A stretch of 24,761 nucleotides of DNA from the IMG/VR virus record IMGVR_UViG_3300011114_000440, positions 1-24,761 of that record; one strand, 5' to 3'. The stretch is from a virus. The notes under the pieces are model-generated. The model was given only the letters and a program-made list of their open reading frames with translations, ran no database searches and was not told the origin of the DNA. Position 1 is the first letter of the stretch; every line of letters begins with the position of its first letter. This document shows positions 1-14,291 of this stretch, piece after piece. Position numbers and translations under genes: made by a program.

Positions 1-105
1 TATATTATGATAATCTACCATATCCCATTTTTCTGGTTGAAAATAACTATCTATTCTAAATCTAAATTCAAGTGTTAAATCCCAGGCTTTTTCTTGTGGT
101 GTCAT
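1..105 (-). CDS. Hypothetical small phage protein, N-terminal part (runs off the left edge)
   Basis: A reading frame starts with ATG at 105 and stays open to position 1, giving 35 residues that begin MTPQEKAWDLTLEFR. The start overlaps the stop of the upstream HTH gene as ATGA (102-105), the same 4-base coupling used elsewhere in this operon, which strongly supports a real gene. The MTPxEKA opening resembles small unknown proteins common in Bacteroidetes phages (from memory of the family look, not a search). No function can be assigned, and the C-terminus is outside the window. Confidence 0.65.
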   Translation of the reverse strand, partial: MTPQEKAWDLTLEFRFRIDSYFQPEKWDMVDYHNI

Positions 106-728
106 TTTAATTTTATTTTTGTGTTTGTAGTGTTTATAGGTTCAAAGTTTTTAGAGTTCTTTACCCATGTACCAATTCTTCTACCTATATCAAAGAATTT
201 TTGGTCTTGGTATCTCATTTTACCTTTAGCATCTGCTTCGGTCCAGTAGTCTAAGAATGATTGATATTGATTCCCTAGTTTATCCTTATACTCGTTTACC
301 CTATTAACAAAAGCTTCTTTATCAGTATATAATTTCTTATTTATATTATCTAATTGTATTTTAGATAATTGTATATTATGTGACGAAATGCCGTCAGGGG
401 GGTGTGTCGAAATGTCGTCAGGGGTATGTTGGCTTTTCGGCAGAGGGTTTTCAAAGCATAGTGTAATACTTCTAAACTCAACTTCCATTTTTTCATTTAG
501 TTTTATTATTCTGCCAATATACTTTTGTTTCTCAAGTTCTCTTAAATTATCCCTAACTGAAGTTACCGAGCAATTTAGACATTTTGCTAAATAATCATTA
601 GATGCAAAACAATATCCCCTTTCATTAGATAAGTTTGATATTAAGGCTAAAAGAATCTTTTGGCGATCTGTTAGTGATTTATCAAGCAAAATCTTTGCCG
701 TAATCGTTACATAAAAACTATGGTTCAT
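102..728 (-). CDS. Helix-turn-helix replication initiator-like protein
   Basis: The protein has 208 residues from ATG 728. That ATG overlaps the methyltransferase stop as ATGA (725-728), so I prefer it to the TTG six bases upstream. Residues about 15-70 form a winged HTH: LTDRQKILLALISNL, then a recognition region around NYLAKCLNCSVTSVRDNLREL (split by position, typical of the HTH_36/replication-O N-terminal type). A low-complexity linker follows (about 90-130), then a C-terminal helical block with YWTEADAKGKMRYQ and FDIGRRIGTWVKN. This linker plus C-terminal block is the usual layout of phage replisome organisers that bind an origin and recruit a helicase loader. Its place in an operon with DnaA-like and annealing proteins fits DNA replication. 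Alternative: a transcription regulator with the same fold. Confidence 0.7.
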   Translation of the reverse strand: MNHSFYVTITAKILLDKSLTDRQKILLALISNLSNERGYCFASNDYLAKCLNCSVTSVRDNLRELEKQKYIGRIIKLNEKMEVEFRSITLCFENPLPKSQHTPDDISTHPPDGISSHNIQLSKIQLDNINKKLYTDKEAFVNRVNEYKDKLGNQYQSFLDYWTEADAKGKMRYQDQKFFDIGRRIGTWVKNSKNFEPINTTNTKIKLK

Positions 729-1339
729 AGACAACTATTTAAAATTTCAATACATAAATTTTGTGGTATTTTGCTTCTATTATAAGCACCCTTTAAACCT
801 TGTGTACCAGTTTTACTGCCTCTAGGTGCTGATACATGACAAGAATCTCCATTTTTACAAATTGGTTTCGGAATCCATTTTTGATTATTTGTCCATATAT
901 CTGTTGGTTTCATTCTTGTATCGCCATATTGACAATATGTTATTGTATGCCTAATCATATCATTCATAAAATCCATTTTTCTTAATAATCCTCTTGGGTT
1001 TTCAATAAAAAAATACTTTGGATTAAAATATTTAATAATATCTATTGTTTTTTTAGCTATTAAAATACCAAGTTTTGCTGTATCTGTTGATGGAATATAC
1101 GCACCCTTGCCACCAGCCCAATGATGCCCAATTGCGGCAACACTAAATCCTGTACATGGTGGAGATGCCCAAACAATATCAGGTTTAAATGGAACTTTTT
1201 TAACATCAAAATCTAAAATATTTACTACATAATCAACTTTGTCAAAATTTTCAATATCACTTGAAAATACATTTATATTAAACTTTTCAGCTTCTTTGCC
1301 AATAGATCTACTTCCTGCAAACAATTCTAATAAATTCAT
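725..1339 (-). CDS. DNA (cytosine-5) methyltransferase, short phage type
   Basis: The 204-residue protein transfers a methyl group from S-adenosylmethionine to cytosine C5. Motif I is LELFAGSRSIG (residues 4-14), binding SAM. The catalytic PPC loop is SPPCTGFS (59-66, Cys62). Motif VI is ENPRG (113-117), where most relatives have ENV. The motif VIII region is CQYGDTRMKPTDIWTN (136-151). It is much shorter than bacterial C5 methyltransferases (over 300 residues), so the target-recognition domain is minimal and specificity cannot be read. The G-rich motif I reads AGSRS rather than AGxGG, as in many orphan phage enzymes. No cognate restriction enzyme is adjacent, so host-restriction protection or epigenetic marking of phage DNA is likely. 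The start is preceded by a T-run, not an A-rich leader, and lies inside a small upstream frame, suggesting translational coupling. Confidence 0.85.
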   Translation of the reverse strand: MNLLELFAGSRSIGKEAEKFNINVFSSDIENFDKVDYVVNILDFDVKKVPFKPDIVWASPPCTGFSVAAIGHHWAGGKGAYIPSTDTAKLGILIAKKTIDIIKYFNPKYFFIENPRGLLRKMDFMNDMIRHTITYCQYGDTRMKPTDIWTNNQKWIPKPICKNGDSCHVSAPRGSKTGTQGLKGAYNRSKIPQNLCIEILNSCL

Positions 1340-2394: not shown

Positions 2395-3066
2395 TTATTT
2401 CTTTTTACTTGTTAACGCATCCTTTTTACTCTTCATTAGCATCATTAAAGCTTCATCACTTTCGATGTAAGCCTTATGTGCAAAAAATACCTCGGTTAAA
2501 TCCTTCATCCTAGTAACCGAAGAAATATCTTTTATTAGTTGTACTCTATCAATCTCAATAGGCACTTCCTCGGCTACCACCTCAACTACTTGGGGTTTTT
2601 TAGGGGTGTTATCCTCTTTGGCAAAGTCCATCTCTTCAGCAGGTGTAGCCTCGAATCCTGCGGTTTTCATTAACCAGGCTAAAAGGTTTCTATAAGCCTT
2701 ACCAATAGCTCTAGTTTGTGCCATAGATAAGATGGCATACTCATCGAAGTAACGCTTTGTTTTCTCCTTATTGGAGCATAAAGCTATACCTACTGCCATT
2801 AACTGACCTGTGGTAATATTACGCACCTCGCATTTAGCAGAGTATCTAATTTCATCCTCCTTGGACATATCCGTAGTTTCTGTGATAATCGGCATCAGTC
2901 CTAAGGAAGCCCCTGCAAATTGCCAACCTTCAACATTCACGAATTGTTTGCCTTGGATGTTGGATGACAATCCTTTTTCCTTAATTAATCTTGATAAATC
3001 TTTAGATAAGTCAAGCATTGATTCAGCGTTGACAATATCAAATTTGGGTTTAGTTTGAAGTTCCAT
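2395..3066 (-). CDS. Putative single-strand annealing protein (Rad52/ERF-like superfamily)
   Basis: The 223-residue product starts at ATG 3066 behind an AAAAACCC/AAAAAACC leader. Residues about 10-145 form the core: a helical N-terminus, a VNVEGWQFAGASLGLMPI segment (43-60), beta strands (RYSAKCEVRNITTGQLMAVG), and then the hallmark helix AQTRAIGKAYRN (116-127) followed by LMKTAGFEATPAEEMD (132-147). The AQTRAIGKAxRN...AGFEATPAEEM pattern is characteristic of phage annealing proteins of the Rad52/Sak/ERF grouping, which coat ssDNA and anneal complementary strands in recombination or replication. A flexible linker rich in Pro/Val/Glu (about 150-172) and a small helical C-terminal domain follow. 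Family placement is from memory of motifs. A specific subfamily (ERF versus Sak3-like) cannot be fixed by eye. Confidence 0.65.
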   Translation of the reverse strand: MELQTKPKFDIVNAESMLDLSKDLSRLIKEKGLSSNIQGKQFVNVEGWQFAGASLGLMPIITETTDMSKEDEIRYSAKCEVRNITTGQLMAVGIALCSNKEKTKRYFDEYAILSMAQTRAIGKAYRNLLAWLMKTAGFEATPAEEMDFAKEDNTPKKPQVVEVVAEEVPIEIDRVQLIKDISSVTRMKDLTEVFFAHKAYIESDEALMMLMKSKKDALTSKKK

Positions 3067-3256
3067 ACTGTAAGGTTTTTTGGGTTTTTAAATTTTGTGT
3101 AAAGAATACTACTTCTCTAATGGGATGCATATCCCAAAAGTTTACGATGCTTTGCATCATTTCTAAACTACTCTGTGAATAGTTAATGTTGTGGATCACT
3201 TTAGCAATAAACAATCTTTGTTCTTGCTCGGACCAGTTTGAAAAATCACTCGACAT
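3050..3256 (-). CDS. Hypothetical protein, 68 residues
   Basis: ATG 3256 is preceded by an A-rich leader (AAACCAAAACACACC). The product overlaps the annealing-protein start by 17 bases, consistent with coupled translation. It begins MSSDFSNWSEQEQRLFIAKV and is predicted mostly helical, with no motif, membrane segment or cysteine cluster that I can name. The family is not recognised. Confidence 0.65.
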   Translation of the reverse strand: MSSDFSNWSEQEQRLFIAKVIHNINYSQSSLEMMQSIVNFWDMHPIREVVFFTQNLKTQKTLQYGTSN

Positions 3257-3273
3257 AATTGGTGTGTTTTGGT

Positions 3274-3633
3274 TTATAATATGTTTTGAAGGTTTTTTAG
3301 ATCGTTATTAGTTGGCTCATCATAACAAAGTAGGTTATTGATGTTTTGGATGGCATGGATGACAGTTGTATGGTCACGATTGAATAACATACCAGTAGCT
3401 TTAAGCTTCAATTTTACCTTGTTTCTGATGATATAAATAGCCATGTGCCTAGCCATTACGATTTCTTTGAACCTGGAACGACCTACAACTTCTTCAGTAG
3501 ATACTCCATAGTAAGAACAAACCTTATCTATTATTTCACTACAAAGGGATTGTCTTTGCTTAGGAGTCATCTTCCTGCTACTAACAGAAGGTACTATCCA
3601 ATAGTTCAAATTTTTATTCTGACTGAAAATCAT
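3274..3633 (-). CDS. Stand-alone DnaA domain IV (DnaA-box-binding HTH) protein
   Basis: Residues about 30-101 match the DNA-binding domain IV of the initiator DnaA: CSYYGVSTEEVVGRSRFKEI, then ARHMAIYIIRNKVKLKLKAT, then GMLFNRDHTTVIHAIQNI. The RDHTTV signature (86-91) contacts the DnaA-box major groove. The AAA+ ATPase and domain I of DnaA are absent, so the protein can bind DNA but not open an origin alone. I chose ATG 3633 (119 residues) because its leader (AAAAACTCTATCT) closely resembles that of the operon's first gene (AAAAACCCCATCT at 4473). ATG 3654 (126 residues) is the alternative. It may bind the phage origin, regulate early genes or titrate host DnaA sites. It sits in the replication operon next to a second small HTH gene. 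Confidence 0.85.
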   Translation of the reverse strand: MIFSQNKNLNYWIVPSVSSRKMTPKQRQSLCSEIIDKVCSYYGVSTEEVVGRSRFKEIVMARHMAIYIIRNKVKLKLKATGMLFNRDHTTVIHAIQNINNLLCYDEPTNNDLKNLQNIL

Positions 3634-3811
3634 AGATAGAGTTTTTAATGTCATCAATTTTTTTAGCGTAGTAGGTTTCTACTATTTCAATCATTTCCTC
3701 ATCTTGCTTGGCAAGGCGAGTTTTTACTAGGTAAGGGCTGAGTCCAGTTGCCTCACAAATCTTTTTTATATCGCCATACTTAAGTAAGGCACGATAATCT
3801 CTAATCAGCAT
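3614..3811 (-). CDS. Small helix-turn-helix protein
   Basis: The product is 65 residues from ATG 3811, chosen over an upstream TTG (3847) because the ATG has a close A-rich leader (TTAAAAAACCAAAA) and overlaps the previous stop by only 11 bases. It begins MLIRDYRALLKYGDIKKICE. The segment GDIKKICEATGLSPYLVKTR has the spacing of a helix-turn-helix with a recognition helix on SPYLVKTRL. The rest is charged and helical. It overlaps the DnaA-like gene downstream. A transcription regulator or DNA-binding accessory of the replication operon is the reasonable inference. The target is unknown. Confidence 0.65.
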   Translation of the reverse strand: MLIRDYRALLKYGDIKKICEATGLSPYLVKTRLAKQDEEMIEIVETYYAKKIDDIKNSIYDFQSE

Positions 3812-4043
3812 TTTTGGTTTTTTTAAATAGTTTATAATGTCGGTCAATGGATCGCATCGCAGCTTCTATAGAAGTAAAATAGGATGCTCTCCAATAGTAG
3901 AACTTGTCTAAAGGCTTTTTGTTATCCCAATGGATAAACATACCTCTATACACAAAATCCTTTTTGATTCTATTAGCATCAATAGTAATCATGAAATAAT
4001 CTTTAAGTCCTTTTTGCTTTAGATGGGCTGGTGTTGGATGCAC
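3801..4043 (-). CDS. Hypothetical protein, 80 residues
   Basis: The frame opens with GTG 4043 behind an A-rich leader (CCTAAAAATTTGAATC). An internal ATG at 3992 would give a 63-residue form beginning MITIDANRIKKDFVYRGMF. It contains aromatic-rich beta segments (FVYRGMFIHWDN, FYYWRASYFTS) and a basic helical C-terminus (RSIDRHYKLFKKTKN). No known family is recognised. The compact basic/aromatic makeup could suit nucleic-acid binding. Start choice is uncertain. Confidence 0.6.
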   Translation of the reverse strand: MHPTPAHLKQKGLKDYFMITIDANRIKKDFVYRGMFIHWDNKKPLDKFYYWRASYFTSIEAAMRSIDRHYKLFKKTKNAD

Positions 4044-4054
4044 GATTCAAATTT

Positions 4055-4258
4055 TTAGGTTAATTTATAAATGGTTTCTAATACCTCCGTAACTGGGTTA
4101 ATGTCTTTTTTAGAGGCAATGTTTAAGAATTTTTCGTAGGCTGTATCTTTATCATAAGATAAACTATCAACGACATACAATCCGTCTACTTTAGTAAAAA
4201 AAACGGTTTCCATATTGTGCGGGTGACTTTCCTGCACGAATTCAATTTTTACTGACAT
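4055..4258 (-). CDS. Hypothetical protein, 67 residues
   Basis: ATG 4258 sits two bases after the stop of the upstream gene (4261) and has a clear leader (CAAAAACCTTAATT). The product begins MSVKIEFVQESHPHNMETVF, has an alternating beta-like N-terminal half and a helical C-terminal half (TAYEKFLNIASKK, TEVLETIYKLT). No catalytic residues, cysteines or membrane segments are evident. Unknown family. Confidence 0.65.
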   Translation of the reverse strand: MSVKIEFVQESHPHNMETVFFTKVDGLYVVDSLSYDKDTAYEKFLNIASKKDINPVTEVLETIYKLT

Positions 4259-4260
4259 AA

Positions 4261-4473
4261 TTAAGGTTTTTGTATTTTGTTAAGTTTTTGGTGACGTTGG
4301 AAGTAAGATGTAATCCCTTGAGAATTGATTTGACTCATGACATTCTCGTAGTATCTGGGATGTATGCAGGTTTTTGTGATGTAGTTGTAATAAACATCTT
4401 CTCCTTGCTTGATAAGTGTGCCAGTCATACTGCAAAAGCAGTCGTATCTAGCTGTAATTAATTCAAATGACAT
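4261..4473 (-). CDS. Hypothetical small protein with cysteine motif; first gene of the leftward operon
   Basis: The 70-residue protein starts at ATG 4473 with the leader ACAAAAACCCCATCT. It has C12-x-C14 and C36 in the pattern ARYDCFCSMTGTLIKQGEDV, reminiscent of the small 'CxCxxTGxxIxxGE' zinc-ribbon-like phage proteins, though a fourth metal ligand is only possibly the following His (CIHP, 36-39). It is the most upstream member of the tightly packed operon, directly behind the T-tract repeat array, so its expression probably depends on signals there. Function unknown. Confidence 0.65.
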   Translation of the reverse strand: MSFELITARYDCFCSMTGTLIKQGEDVYYNYITKTCIHPRYYENVMSQINSQGITSYFQRHQKLNKIQKP

Positions 4474-4519
4474 AGATGGGGTTTTTGTGTTTTTTAATAA
4501 TTTTAAACGAAGTTAAAGG

Positions 4520-4689
4520 TTTTTTGTTATTGTTTAAGATTTTTATGGGGTTTTTTGTTAAGGAAATCATAAAAGATTTTTGTCAGATTTTTGTGAAGTT
4601 TTTGTCTGTGGGATTTTTAGGGGATTTTTAGGAAGTTTTTGGCATGGAGTTTTTGGGGAGTTTTTGCTAGGGGTTTTTGGCAGGTTTTT
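4520..4689 (+). repeat. Degenerate 11-bp repeat array of phased T5-6 tracts (A-tracts on the - strand)
   Basis: Thirteen T5 or T6 runs begin at 4520, 4540, 4551, 4577, 4588, 4599, 4614, 4625, 4636, 4650, 4661, 4674 and 4685. Seven of the twelve steps are exactly 11 bases and the rest mostly 13-15. The unit reads approximately RGTTTTTGNNN (for example GATTTTTGTCA, AGTTTTTGGGG, GGTTTTTGGCA). The + strand has almost no C here. A-tracts repeated close to the helical pitch bend DNA (established), so this should be strongly curved. Read leftward as RNA it would be the leader of the gene at 4473 with repeated CAAAAAC motifs. Possible roles: origin, architectural operator, or leader RNA element. Confidence 0.85.
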
Positions 4690-4712
4690 GCCTATTTGAA
4701 ATTTTGTTTCAA

Positions 4713-4756
4713 TAGTTGCATAAACAACTAATGTTTAAACATTAATGTTATAACAT
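4713..4756. promoter_or_regulatory. Operator-like palindrome cluster
   Basis: Two perfect 12-bp palindromes stand two bases apart: ATGTTTAAACAT (4731-4742) and ATGTTATAACAT (4745-4756), sharing the consensus ATGTTWWAACAT. The second extends to 14 bp (4744-4757). Immediately left is TAGTTG-N6-CAACTA (4713-4730). Such tandem dyads are typical binding sites for dimeric HTH regulators. They lie upstream of the repeat array and of the leftward operon. The remaining gene-free DNA to 4889 is AT-rich with no other signal that I can support. Confidence 0.6.
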
Positions 4757-5150: not shown

Positions 5151-5174
5151 AAAAAAGGGCCCAATTGAGGCCCT
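5151..5174 (-). terminator. Rho-independent terminator after the Gp88-like gene
   Basis: On the - strand AGGGCC, a 7-base loop TCAATTG, GGCCCT and then a run of T form a GC-rich hairpin with U-tract, nine bases beyond the stop codon at 5183. It should end the leftward transcript of the Gp88-like gene. Confidence 0.85.
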
Positions 5175-6158: not shown

Positions 6159-6257
6159 TTACTTTTTTAATGTTTGGTAAATTGTTTTGATTAAGGTATA
6201 AATTAGAATTGAGGCTATAAATAAAGCAATCAATTCAAAAAGGCTAATTATTTGCAT
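6159..6257 (-). CDS. Putative single-pass membrane microprotein, 32 residues
   Basis: ATG 6257 opens a 32-residue frame ending at TAA 6159, with an A-rich leader (AATCAAAGAAA). The first 22 residues form one hydrophobic segment (MQIISLFELIALFIASILIY), followed by a polar basic tail ending in TLKK, the classic shape of a one-helix membrane peptide with a cytosolic basic end. It overlaps the preceding microprotein gene by 14 bases and ends three bases before the next gene, so it is part of the leftward run. A role in membrane targeting, host takeover or toxicity is speculation. Confidence 0.5.
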   Translation of the reverse strand: MQIISLFELIALFIASILIYTLIKTIYQTLKK

Positions 6258-6363
6258 TTTCTTTGATTAATAGGTGGATTAATAGGCGTAATAAAGTACC
6301 TATAAAATAGGTAACTAAGCCAATGAATAAAATAGGTAGTAAAGTTTCTGTAAATTGATACAT
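6244..6363 (-). CDS. Putative single-pass membrane microprotein, 39 residues
   Basis: ATG 6363 opens a 39-residue frame ending at TAG 6244. It has a long hydrophobic stretch covering about residues 8-34 (LLPILFIGLVTYFIGTLLRL and onward) with one Arg and one His inside, and a polar end ENANN. It could make one long or two short membrane helices. The gene lies 20 bases after the stop of the 6384-6569 gene and overlaps the next membrane microprotein, making a tandem pair. No family is recognised. Confidence 0.5.
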   Translation of the reverse strand: MYQFTETLLPILFIGLVTYFIGTLLRLLIHLLIKENANN

Positions 6364-6569: not shown

Positions 6570-7162
6570 TTTGTTAGTGTTTAATGAGCAATAAAGATAA
6601 GTACAAAAGTCAAACAATATTAAAAATACTTAAATTATTTTAGTTAAAATTGTGTTAACAAAGTAATGTGTACAAAGTACACTAAGGTATTCGGTGTATA
6701 TAATTATTAGTATATGTTATATTAGATAATATAGTATATATTATCTAATATAGTTTTTATTGATCAATATATATATTACTTAGTATATTCTATATTGGAT
6801 AATATAGGGATATAATAATACATAGATTGAATTAAAGTATTTTAGCTTGATTTGTAGCGATCGCATAAACGAGCCTAATCAATCAATAGATTAAAAATAC
6901 ATATTTTTGCCTCGGATATTGGGTAAAATGGTATGCGAATAGCTTCGTATTTAACATAATGGTAATTATAAGTAGATTCTAATATTGATTATCAATGACT
7001 TATAAAAGTGATTATCTATGAAATTGTTCGTAGTACCCCCTACCCACTTTTTTAGCGTAGGAAAGGTAAGGTTGCCCTTGTGCCCCTCAAAATTCTGATT
7101 TCATCTAATAACATTATAAAAAAATATAATATGTACAAATGTAAACCCAAACCAAAGAAATA
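6570..7162. other. Divergent intergenic region between leftward early genes and rightward terS
   Basis: No gene is supported in these 590 bases. Structure seen: GTGTAC-AAA-GTACAC (6668-6682); the triple palindrome set at 6718-6806; a near-perfect dyad ATGCGAA-TAGC-TTCGTAT (6933-6950); ATTGAT-T-ATCAAT (6984-6996) with GATTATC repeated at 7010; and two C-rich patches (7036-7045, 7073-7088) that stand out from the AT-rich surroundings just ahead of terS. The region must hold the control elements for both directions, but I find no full promoter match. Confidence 0.6.
6718..6806. repeat. Three copies of a 16-bp palindromic element, TATATTRGATAATATA
   Basis: A perfect inverted repeat joins TATATTAGATAATATA (6718-6733) to its reverse complement (6737-6752) with a 3-base spacer GTA. 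A third copy, TATATTGGATAATATA (6791-6806), differs by one base. Each copy is itself a near-palindrome (TATATT-N4-AATATA). The set lies centrally between divergent gene blocks and could be operators or initiator-binding sites. The full 35-base inverted repeat can also form a cruciform or hairpin. Confidence 0.75.
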
Positions 7163-10733: not shown

Positions 10734-11564
10734 ATGCCCAAGATATTACAACCTTCTCAGCAATTCAATTTGCAACAAACCATAGCGAGGAAGTCCATCA
10801 CGGAATTTAGGCCTAAAATACAAAAGGCCTTACAAAGTGATTTTAATAAAGCTGCGGAGTTGGTAAAAGAGATGGGGGCATACCAAGTGGCTAACTATAA
10901 GAAAACATTTTTTAACCAAGATAAGATTAGCAATATTTTACGAACTTTGTACGAAGGTACTGGTGGATATACTGCTATGAGGTATCAAAAGATATTTGAC
11001 AGGTATAAGAAAGCTGAAACTATCGACCTCGATCCATTAAATATCATGGATGAGTGGTTAGCGTTTATGTTGTCGTATTGGACTGCAATAAGTGGTTTAA
11101 AAATGTACGGCATAGAAAACACTACCGACAATGAGATAGCTAAAATATTAAACAATGCGATTGCTTATGGAAGGGCTAATAACCTTTCTACAAACGAAGT
11201 AAACGCAATGGCTATTCAGCTTCTTAGAGAAGGTAAAATAAATGGTGCAAGGAGTTTATTGATTGCAAGAACCGAATCTCATCAAGCTTTAAGCACAGGT
11301 GCGATTGGGGCAACACAAGGAATTAATATACCTTTGTCAAAACAATGGATTCATGCTGAGTATGTTGGTAGCCCAAGATATTGGCACATGGCATTAGACA
11401 AGCAAACGAATCCTGATGATGGTGGAGTAAAAATACCTGTGAACCAACCATTCATAGTAAACACTCCAAATTATGGTGTAATTGAAATGCAATACGCACA
11501 TGATGCAAGTGGCGGAGCAGTAAACAACTGCAACTGCCGATGTTGTACGGTGTATATTGCTTAA
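10734..11564 (+). CDS. Minor head protein, Mu gpF / SPP1 gp7-like
   Basis: The 276-residue protein is expected inside or at the portal of the prohead and may be ejected with DNA. The C-terminal domain has the family signature: GARSLLIARTESHQALSTGA (171-190), KQWIHAEYVGSPRYWHMALD (203-222) with the conserved His218, and the terminal cysteine cluster CNCRCC (266-271), typical of the MuF domain that ends in C-x-C-R-C. The N-terminal half is helical. The ATG lies five bases after the portal stop. No toxin or ADP-ribosyltransferase domain is fused to it. Confidence 0.82.
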   Translation: MPKILQPSQQFNLQQTIARKSITEFRPKIQKALQSDFNKAAELVKEMGAYQVANYKKTFFNQDKISNILRTLYEGTGGYTAMRYQKIFDRYKKAETIDLDPLNIMDEWLAFMLSYWTAISGLKMYGIENTTDNEIAKILNNAIAYGRANNLSTNEVNAMAIQLLREGKINGARSLLIARTESHQALSTGAIGATQGINIPLSKQWIHAEYVGSPRYWHMALDKQTNPDDGGVKIPVNQPFIVNTPNYGVIEMQYAHDASGGAVNNCNCRCCTVYIA

Positions 11565-13580: not shown

Positions 13581-14291
13581 ATGATAGGTATATATAAAAT
13601 CACAGGCCCAAATGGCAAAATTTACATTGGTCAAACAACTAGTTTTATTAAAAGAAAAAACTATTACAAGAATGGGGCAAAGCCATACCAAGTAAGGATT
13701 TACAATTCATTACAGAAGCATGGATACGATGCACATACTATTGAATTAATTGAGGAATGTTTAGTTGATAATCTTAATGAAAGAGAAAGGTATTGGCAGG
13801 ACTTCTATGATGTTATTGGTAAGAATGGATTGAATTGTAGATTAACTGAAACCACAGATAAAAGTGGGTTTATAAGCGATGAATCAAAAGCTAAAATGTC
13901 TGAGGCTAGACAAAAAAGGATATTAACAGATAAAGAAAAATTAAGGTTAAGAGGATTATTTACAGGGAGGAAACATTCTGAAGAAACAAAAAAGAAGATG
14001 TCAGAAAGGGCAAAGATGAATAAAAAGAGCCCAGAGCATATGGCTAAGATATTAGAAAATTTAAAAAAAGTTATACGCAAACCTACATCAGAATCTACTA
14101 AAATTAAACAAAGTATTAATAGCGGAAAATCAAAGGTAGTTTATCAATATACTATGAATGGTATGTTTATAGATGAATATAGAAATGTGGCTGAAGCTCA
14201 AAGATGCTTAAACATTAAAAACATTAGTTCTGCTGCTTTAGGCAAGATTCCATCATCAGGAGGCTTCAAATGGAAGTACACTAAATTTTAG
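13581..14291 (+). CDS. GIY-YIG homing endonuclease with NUMOD DNA-binding modules
   Basis: The 236-residue protein begins with a GIY-YIG nuclease domain: GIYKITGPNGKIYIGQT (3-19), a conserved Arg/Lys region after it, and the catalytic Glu in NERERYW (66-72). The DNA-binding half has NUMOD3-type repeats (GRKHSEETKKKMSERAK, 129-145, with related SDESKAKMSEAR at 99-110) and a NUMOD1/IENR1-like C-terminus (VVYQYTMNGMFIDEYRN, 186-202, then SSGGFKWKY). This is a free-standing homing endonuclease, a selfish element that cuts cognate alleles lacking it and spreads by repair. It has inserted between the capsid and connector genes without breaking either. Its gene is more A-rich than the capsid gene. 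The ATG follows the terminator U-tract with no A-rich leader, suggesting weak translation. Confidence 0.92.
   Translation: MIGIYKITGPNGKIYIGQTTSFIKRKNYYKNGAKPYQVRIYNSLQKHGYDAHTIELIEECLVDNLNERERYWQDFYDVIGKNGLNCRLTETTDKSGFISDESKAKMSEARQKRILTDKEKLRLRGLFTGRKHSEETKKKMSERAKMNKKSPEHMAKILENLKKVIRKPTSESTKIKQSINSGKSKVVYQYTMNGMFIDEYRNVAEAQRCLNIKNISSAALGKIPSSGGFKWKYTKF

Follow-up and report, generated by a model that had tools for sequence, protein, structure and literature searches.

Direct repeats with a pitch of about one helical turn, lying beside replication genes, are characteristic of iteron origins and of parC-type sites with their 11-bp repeats. In phi29, p6 monomers touch the minor groove of the DNA at 12-bp intervals, in GA-1 at 11-bp intervals, and p6 builds up long nucleoprotein assemblies with effects on early transcription and on replication (PMC10899789). 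Cluster K mycobacteriophages carry SAS/ESAS, a short asymmetric motif of unknown function that precedes gene starts mostly in one orientation and is sometimes accompanied by inverted repeats upstream (PMC3203893). In phages thought to infect Bacteroidetes, control of the replication genes is poorly known. At the locus described here, a dense array of A5 units stands at the head of the replication operon of such a phage, and it ranks with the most constrained non-coding features of its phage group.

The window, i.e., the whole stretch of DNA that was analyzed, is a 24,761-base IMG/VR virus record of a tailed phage, the terminase of which is about 35% identical to terminases of Bacteroides and Parabacteroides phages. 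Bacteroidetes bacteria are probably the hosts of this widespread uncultured phage group; no close cultured relative was found for the early genes or the terminase, and two prophage scans of genome contigs for the host returned no relative. Late genes point rightward, and the early and replication genes form a leftward block with the 70-aa first gene, an HTH-like protein, a DnaA domain IV protein, a C5 methylase and an HTH_36/DnaD-like initiator (Table 1). An earlier note on this DNA had placed the array ahead of an operon encoding a DnaA domain IV protein and a replication initiator-like protein, and both are indeed members of the operon, the former with a Bac_DnaA_C match. The initiator gene holds a 24-bp tandem repeat (1.9 copies, window 379-424) that recalls iterons within initiator genes. 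Elsewhere in the window, an ORF within the head-gene cluster (13581-14291) resembles GIY-YIG/NUMOD homing endonucleases, and the non-coding gap dividing the leftward from the rightward gene blocks carries a 35-bp AT-rich repeat of 3.2 copies (6696-6816).

Table 1. Features at and around the array, in window coordinates.
Feature	Position	Strand	Basis or remark
Replication-initiation/DnaD-like protein with HTH_36 domain, distal end of the operon	102..734	-	
DnaA domain IV-only protein	3274..3633	-	Pfam Bac_DnaA_C, 3.4e-22
Small predicted helix-turn-helix-like protein, long C-terminal helix	3614..3811	-	Present in many relatives
First operon gene, 70 aa, conserved	4261..4473	-	Relatives at 46, then 240 loci; low-confidence fold
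Putative promoter P2, AAAAATCTTAAACAATAACAAAAAACCTT-TAACTTCG	4508..4544	-	-7 box TAACTTCG at 4515-4508
Conserved proximal 33-mer AAAAATCTTTTATGATTTCCTTAACAAAAAACC, links array to promoter	4549..4581	-	Exact degenerate match in 75 other viral contigs
Dense array, ten C/T-AAAAA-YYY units	4577..4689	- (transcribed strand)	Spacings 11,13,11,14,11,11,15,11,11 (mean 12.0)
Inverted repeat CTATTTGAAA..TTTCAATAG, adjoins upstream edge of array	4692..4715	.	Sequence
Two tandem palindromes ATGTTTAAACAT + ATGTTATAACAT, type ATGTTNNAACAT	4731..4756	.	Upstream of array in many relatives too
Intrinsic terminator-like hairpin past GP88-family gene, separates upstream transcription	5156..5174	-	

The earlier note had described thirteen T5-6 runs with seven exact 11-bp steps at 4520-4689, on a strand almost free of C and in a gene-free region. 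All of this was reproduced, with exactly seven of the start-to-start distances between the 13 runs measuring 11 bp, 6 C per 170 bases and no plausible genes in the interval, and every other 170-bp stretch of the window has at most five T5-6 runs. The T autocorrelation at lag 11 is 0.45, a value reached by 0/2000 dinucleotide shuffles and by 0/2000 run-preserving shuffles. At lag 24 it is as high (0.43): 11-bp steps take turns with longer ones of 13-15 bp, which puts the true mean pitch at 12 rather than 11 bp. The location of the array stands, but its limits had been drawn slightly too narrowly around a dense part (Table 1) from which a conserved promoter-like tail extends to about 4480. Our data hence support a non-random, strand-asymmetric repeat at the head of the replication operon. 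Rfam gave no significant match, and an incomplete literature search, in agreement with the note, found no described element of this form.

Relatives were gathered by protein searches with the first gene, at 46 loci and then at 240. The presence count was restricted to distinct first genes preceded by 400 nt or more of sequence, chosen by the neighboring protein alone (n = 61); some other relatives came from a pattern search, which is biased, and were excluded from it. All 61 distinct IMG/VR relatives carry such an array upstream of their first operon gene. On the sense strand within 3 kb, 60 of them have at least five units per 100 nt and all 61 at least four; elsewhere in those loci, on either strand, the maximum is three units per 100 nt, save for two cases with four. 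The orientation in the 61 relatives is single, the A5 strand always being that of the operon direction, and 25 long loci never contain more than one dense array, again always on the operon strand.

On the transcribed strand, the unit reads C-AAAAA-Y-C/Y-Y. Across 86 arrays the A-run is exactly five long in 483 of 514 units and six long in 31. Across 200 distinct unit contexts, C or T precedes A5 and three pyrimidines follow it in at least 99%, a figure to be read with a detection rule that already demanded A5-6 and a pyrimidine at adjacent positions; spacer positions are nearly free. By a stricter count, arrays comprise 5-11 units. The commonest step across arrays is 11, with 13, 14, 15 and 17 also found, and the spacings compensate so that a 12-bp register is held. 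In 25 dissimilar representatives, the 12.0-bp vector strength is 0.77, compared with 0.63 for shuffled step orders (0/2000), where the arrays are mutually related, so that register tests are not fully independent and the statistics are descriptive. These representatives were picked greedily because single-linkage clustering collapsed all arrays into one. The proximal 33-mer is present in lineages with first-gene proteins only 46-52% identical; this 33-bp piece is nearly unchanged in 75 contigs, while the adjacent protein goes down to about 46% identity. A conserved leader peptide starting from the ATG of TCTTTTATG was considered and rejected on inspection, as several lineages lack the ATG and the frame relative to the first gene varies.

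Many A-tracts and 11-bp steps had led to the proposal that the array is intrinsically curved DNA built from helically phased A-tracts. At 10.5 bp, however, the A5 tracts are out of phase. The vector strength over all arrays is 0.36, compared with 0.46 in shuffled arrays, with 1000/1000 shuffles higher, and coherence is below chance also in the 25 dissimilar representatives. In a wedge model with a self-written wedge table, the end-to-end ratio is 0.89 for the array and 0.30 for a phased control; 12% of the window's stretches exceed the array in curvature, and 99.7% of the spacer permutations of the window array curve more than the real one. Being off the 10.5-bp phase and of ordinary modeled curvature, the array thus fails the curvature idea for free DNA, and strong intrinsic curvature appears hardly tenable. 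The array is a worked case that A-tracts at regular spacing need not mean curved DNA.

With its downstream end, the array adjoins what by sequence is a putative promoter of the Bacteroidetes type, P2. The P2 -7 box has one mismatch to TAnnTTTG, the Bacteroidetes -7 box (PMC6847099, PMC7366714), and in one relative the perfect TAACTTTG is found. The P2 spacer carries an A6 tract at 4525-4520, and a -33-like TTAAA lies at 4537-4533. Within 160 nt downstream of the array end, TAAYTTYR occurs in 82 of 108 relatives, compared with 8.7% in shuffles; the relatives' promoter boxes typically have an A-run in the spacer and a TTTG/TTTAA-like sequence further up. The -33 region reads TTTG in some lineages and TTTAA or CTTAA in others, and the -33 motif is weak in F. 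johnsoniae as well (PMC6847099). An additional upstream promoter P1 (TTG-N16-18-TAnnTTT) was dropped, showing no excess over shuffles. At the position of the upstream inverted repeat, other lineages have different palindromes, e.g., GCAACT..AGTTGC.

In some relatives the array and the first gene are separated, over up to 2.3 kb, by one or more genes, e.g., C5 methylases. The array keeps its position at the head of the block in all of these insertion alleles and hence is an autonomous element. Most insertion alleles have a promoter-like element directly behind the array. Five insertion types have a gene of about 200-630 bp inserted ahead of P2, and the start codon of this gene is no more than about 20 nt away from the array. 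From this it follows that the array is separable from P2 and may be transcribed there, which makes it less likely to be a simple promoter-adjacent enhancer serving only P2. These five types are also the strongest point for a role at the RNA level. As a separate observation, in locus L109 a methylase-bearing gene block (3320-4720) is lodged between the array and P2, and its stop codon overlaps the conserved 33-mer, which suggests gene exchange at short A5 motifs.

For control at the RNA level, the array would be an untranslated leader, an unstructured, C-rich and G-poor RNA that loads Rho or an antitermination/RNA-binding protein at sites 11-13 nt apart and decides whether upstream transcription enters the replication operon. 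Indeed, among all 78-nt stretches of the window, both strands included, C exceeds G most strongly in the array (30 C, 3 G). RhoTermPredict recognizes rut sites by C residues 11-13 nt apart over 78 nt (PMC6407284), and six to seven units of 12 nt correspond to 72-84 nt. In agreement with this, the orientation always follows transcription, and insertion alleles have a gene start right behind the array. However, exactly five A and three following pyrimidines are unnecessary for a rut site, as is a cumulative 12-nt register for a flexible RNA. The C/G ratio is as high as in the array, or almost, at two further places in the window, and hairpins in the longer spacers, a sign of structured RNA, are on average not enriched. 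We consider RNA-level control unlikely, although it is the main rival to the reading favored below.

Direct repeats beside palindromes, a single array per genome and the nearby genes for a DnaA domain IV protein and an initiator could also point to a replication origin. The units would then be iterons for the phage initiator or a DnaA-like protein and the region an unwinding site, similar to the curved origin or iteron that the earlier note had found plausible. Third-position GC skew was used as a proxy for the origin. With the first gene as reference point, operon-strand genes of 99 distinct loci have a negative skew between -4 kb and +1.3 kb and a positive one from +1.5 kb onward, and opposite-strand genes show the skew expected for diverging forks. 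The flip, 1.3-1.5 kb past the first gene, falls at window 3000-3270, next to the DnaA-IV gene. If skew marks the origin, this suggests an origin there rather than at the array, and a bidirectional origin at the array is disfavored because the switch lies elsewhere. The array contains no DnaA box, and such boxes are not in excess, including those with one mismatch, as found at 3190-3198. Moreover, the insertion alleles move the array far from the first gene. The array probably is not the replication origin, and we regard a function of its units as iterons as quite unlikely.

AAAAACC leaders before downstream genes, to which the repeat had been likened, are real and precede several operon genes. 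AAAAAC motifs are found ahead of 24% of same-strand starts, compared with 3.4% of random 30-nt windows. In Flavobacterium, TAAAA or A-rich leaders replace Shine-Dalgarno sequences (PMC2483708, PMC6847099), and the single AAAAAC motifs at other genes probably are ordinary A-rich Bacteroidetes leaders. Given this enrichment and precedent, and with a start codon near the end of some arrays, the array might be a series of A-rich ribosome-binding elements that raise translation of the first gene. In most alleles, however, a promoter-like element separates array and start codon, and the array would thus fall outside that mRNA. Elsewhere a single A-rich element per gene is enough, and such leaders have neither a strict A5 nor a 12-nt register, making a translational role of the array very unlikely.

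The strictness of the sequence, its single orientation and the cumulative 12-bp register together suggest a rigid multi-site scaffold. We tentatively favor, with slightly less than even confidence, a multi-site, single-orientation docking array on which a DNA-binding protein assembles at 12-bp intervals and governs how the replication operon is expressed. Each CAAAAAYYY unit would be one site for a phage- or host-encoded protein that probably contacts the narrow minor groove of the A5 tract, and the spacing of about 12 bp would let many protein copies assemble side by side on one DNA segment. Together with the upstream palindromic operators, the nucleoprotein assembly could switch the adjacent Bacteroidetes-type promoter, and with it replication gene expression, on or off. 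We infer binding, multimerization and transcriptional regulation by such a protein; the presence of the array in 61/61 relatives, the pyrimidine context, the register, the TAAYTTYR boxes and the palindromes upstream are in agreement with it. Counting against docking are the five insertion types that part the array from P2, the A5 strand that always follows the operon direction, as an RNA element would also explain, and the register tests having been made on related arrays. The small HTH-like protein, going by its predicted structure, is a candidate DNA-binding partner only, and that its structural comparison against the PDB gave no significant match counts against docking as well. It is possible, if doubtful, that the array represents a new class of control element, namely a DNA-wrapping filament of an unknown protein, built on A5 units of strict sequence, one orientation and 12-bp register, that would act as master switch of the replication genes in a large uncultured phage group. 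The conserved unit and register offer a ready bait for finding the protein.

Compared with known systems, the array shares with rut sites the excess of C over G along about 78 nt, a C every 11-13 nt and the location on the transcribed strand, whereas A5 invariance and cumulative register are features of the array and not of rut sites. Iteron and parC-type sites differ in that the array steps vary from 11 to 17 and the GC-skew switch lies elsewhere; no ParM/ParR-like gene was seen among the window proteins searched. Two unrelated phages, L180 (array 6227-6319, reverse strand) and L209 (694-740), have arrays of 11-bp AAAAATTTCGT units immediately upstream of small genes of ribbon-helix-helix appearance; these arrays resemble parC/ParR or autorepressor sites. 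L224 has seven units of exact 11-bp pitch (GGGTAAAAACT, 11388-11458) upstream of an ORF that contains a repressor-like HTH sequence. SAS occurs as 11-19 dispersed 13-bp copies with the consensus 5'-GGGATAGGAGCCC, whereas the array is dense, single and of other sequence, with looser A-rich leaders in addition. Like Bacteroidetes primary-sigma promoters (TTTG/TAnnTTTG), for which AT-rich motifs at -18 and -28 were found in F. johnsoniae (PMC6847099), P2 has a TAAYTTYR -7 box and an A/T tract near -20; a preceding array of 5-11 A5 units, as P2 has one, is not described for them. Pfam and PHROGs scans of window proteins gave no p6 homologue, with a structure comparison for one candidate only. p6 reads a bendability pattern and not a sequence, whereas the array unit is a strict A5 in pyrimidine context, and the array does not lie at genome ends. 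A register of 11-12 bp, however, is common to phi29/GA-1 p6 and the array, and by analogy phi29 p6 would be the nearest working parallel, in function rather than in membership.
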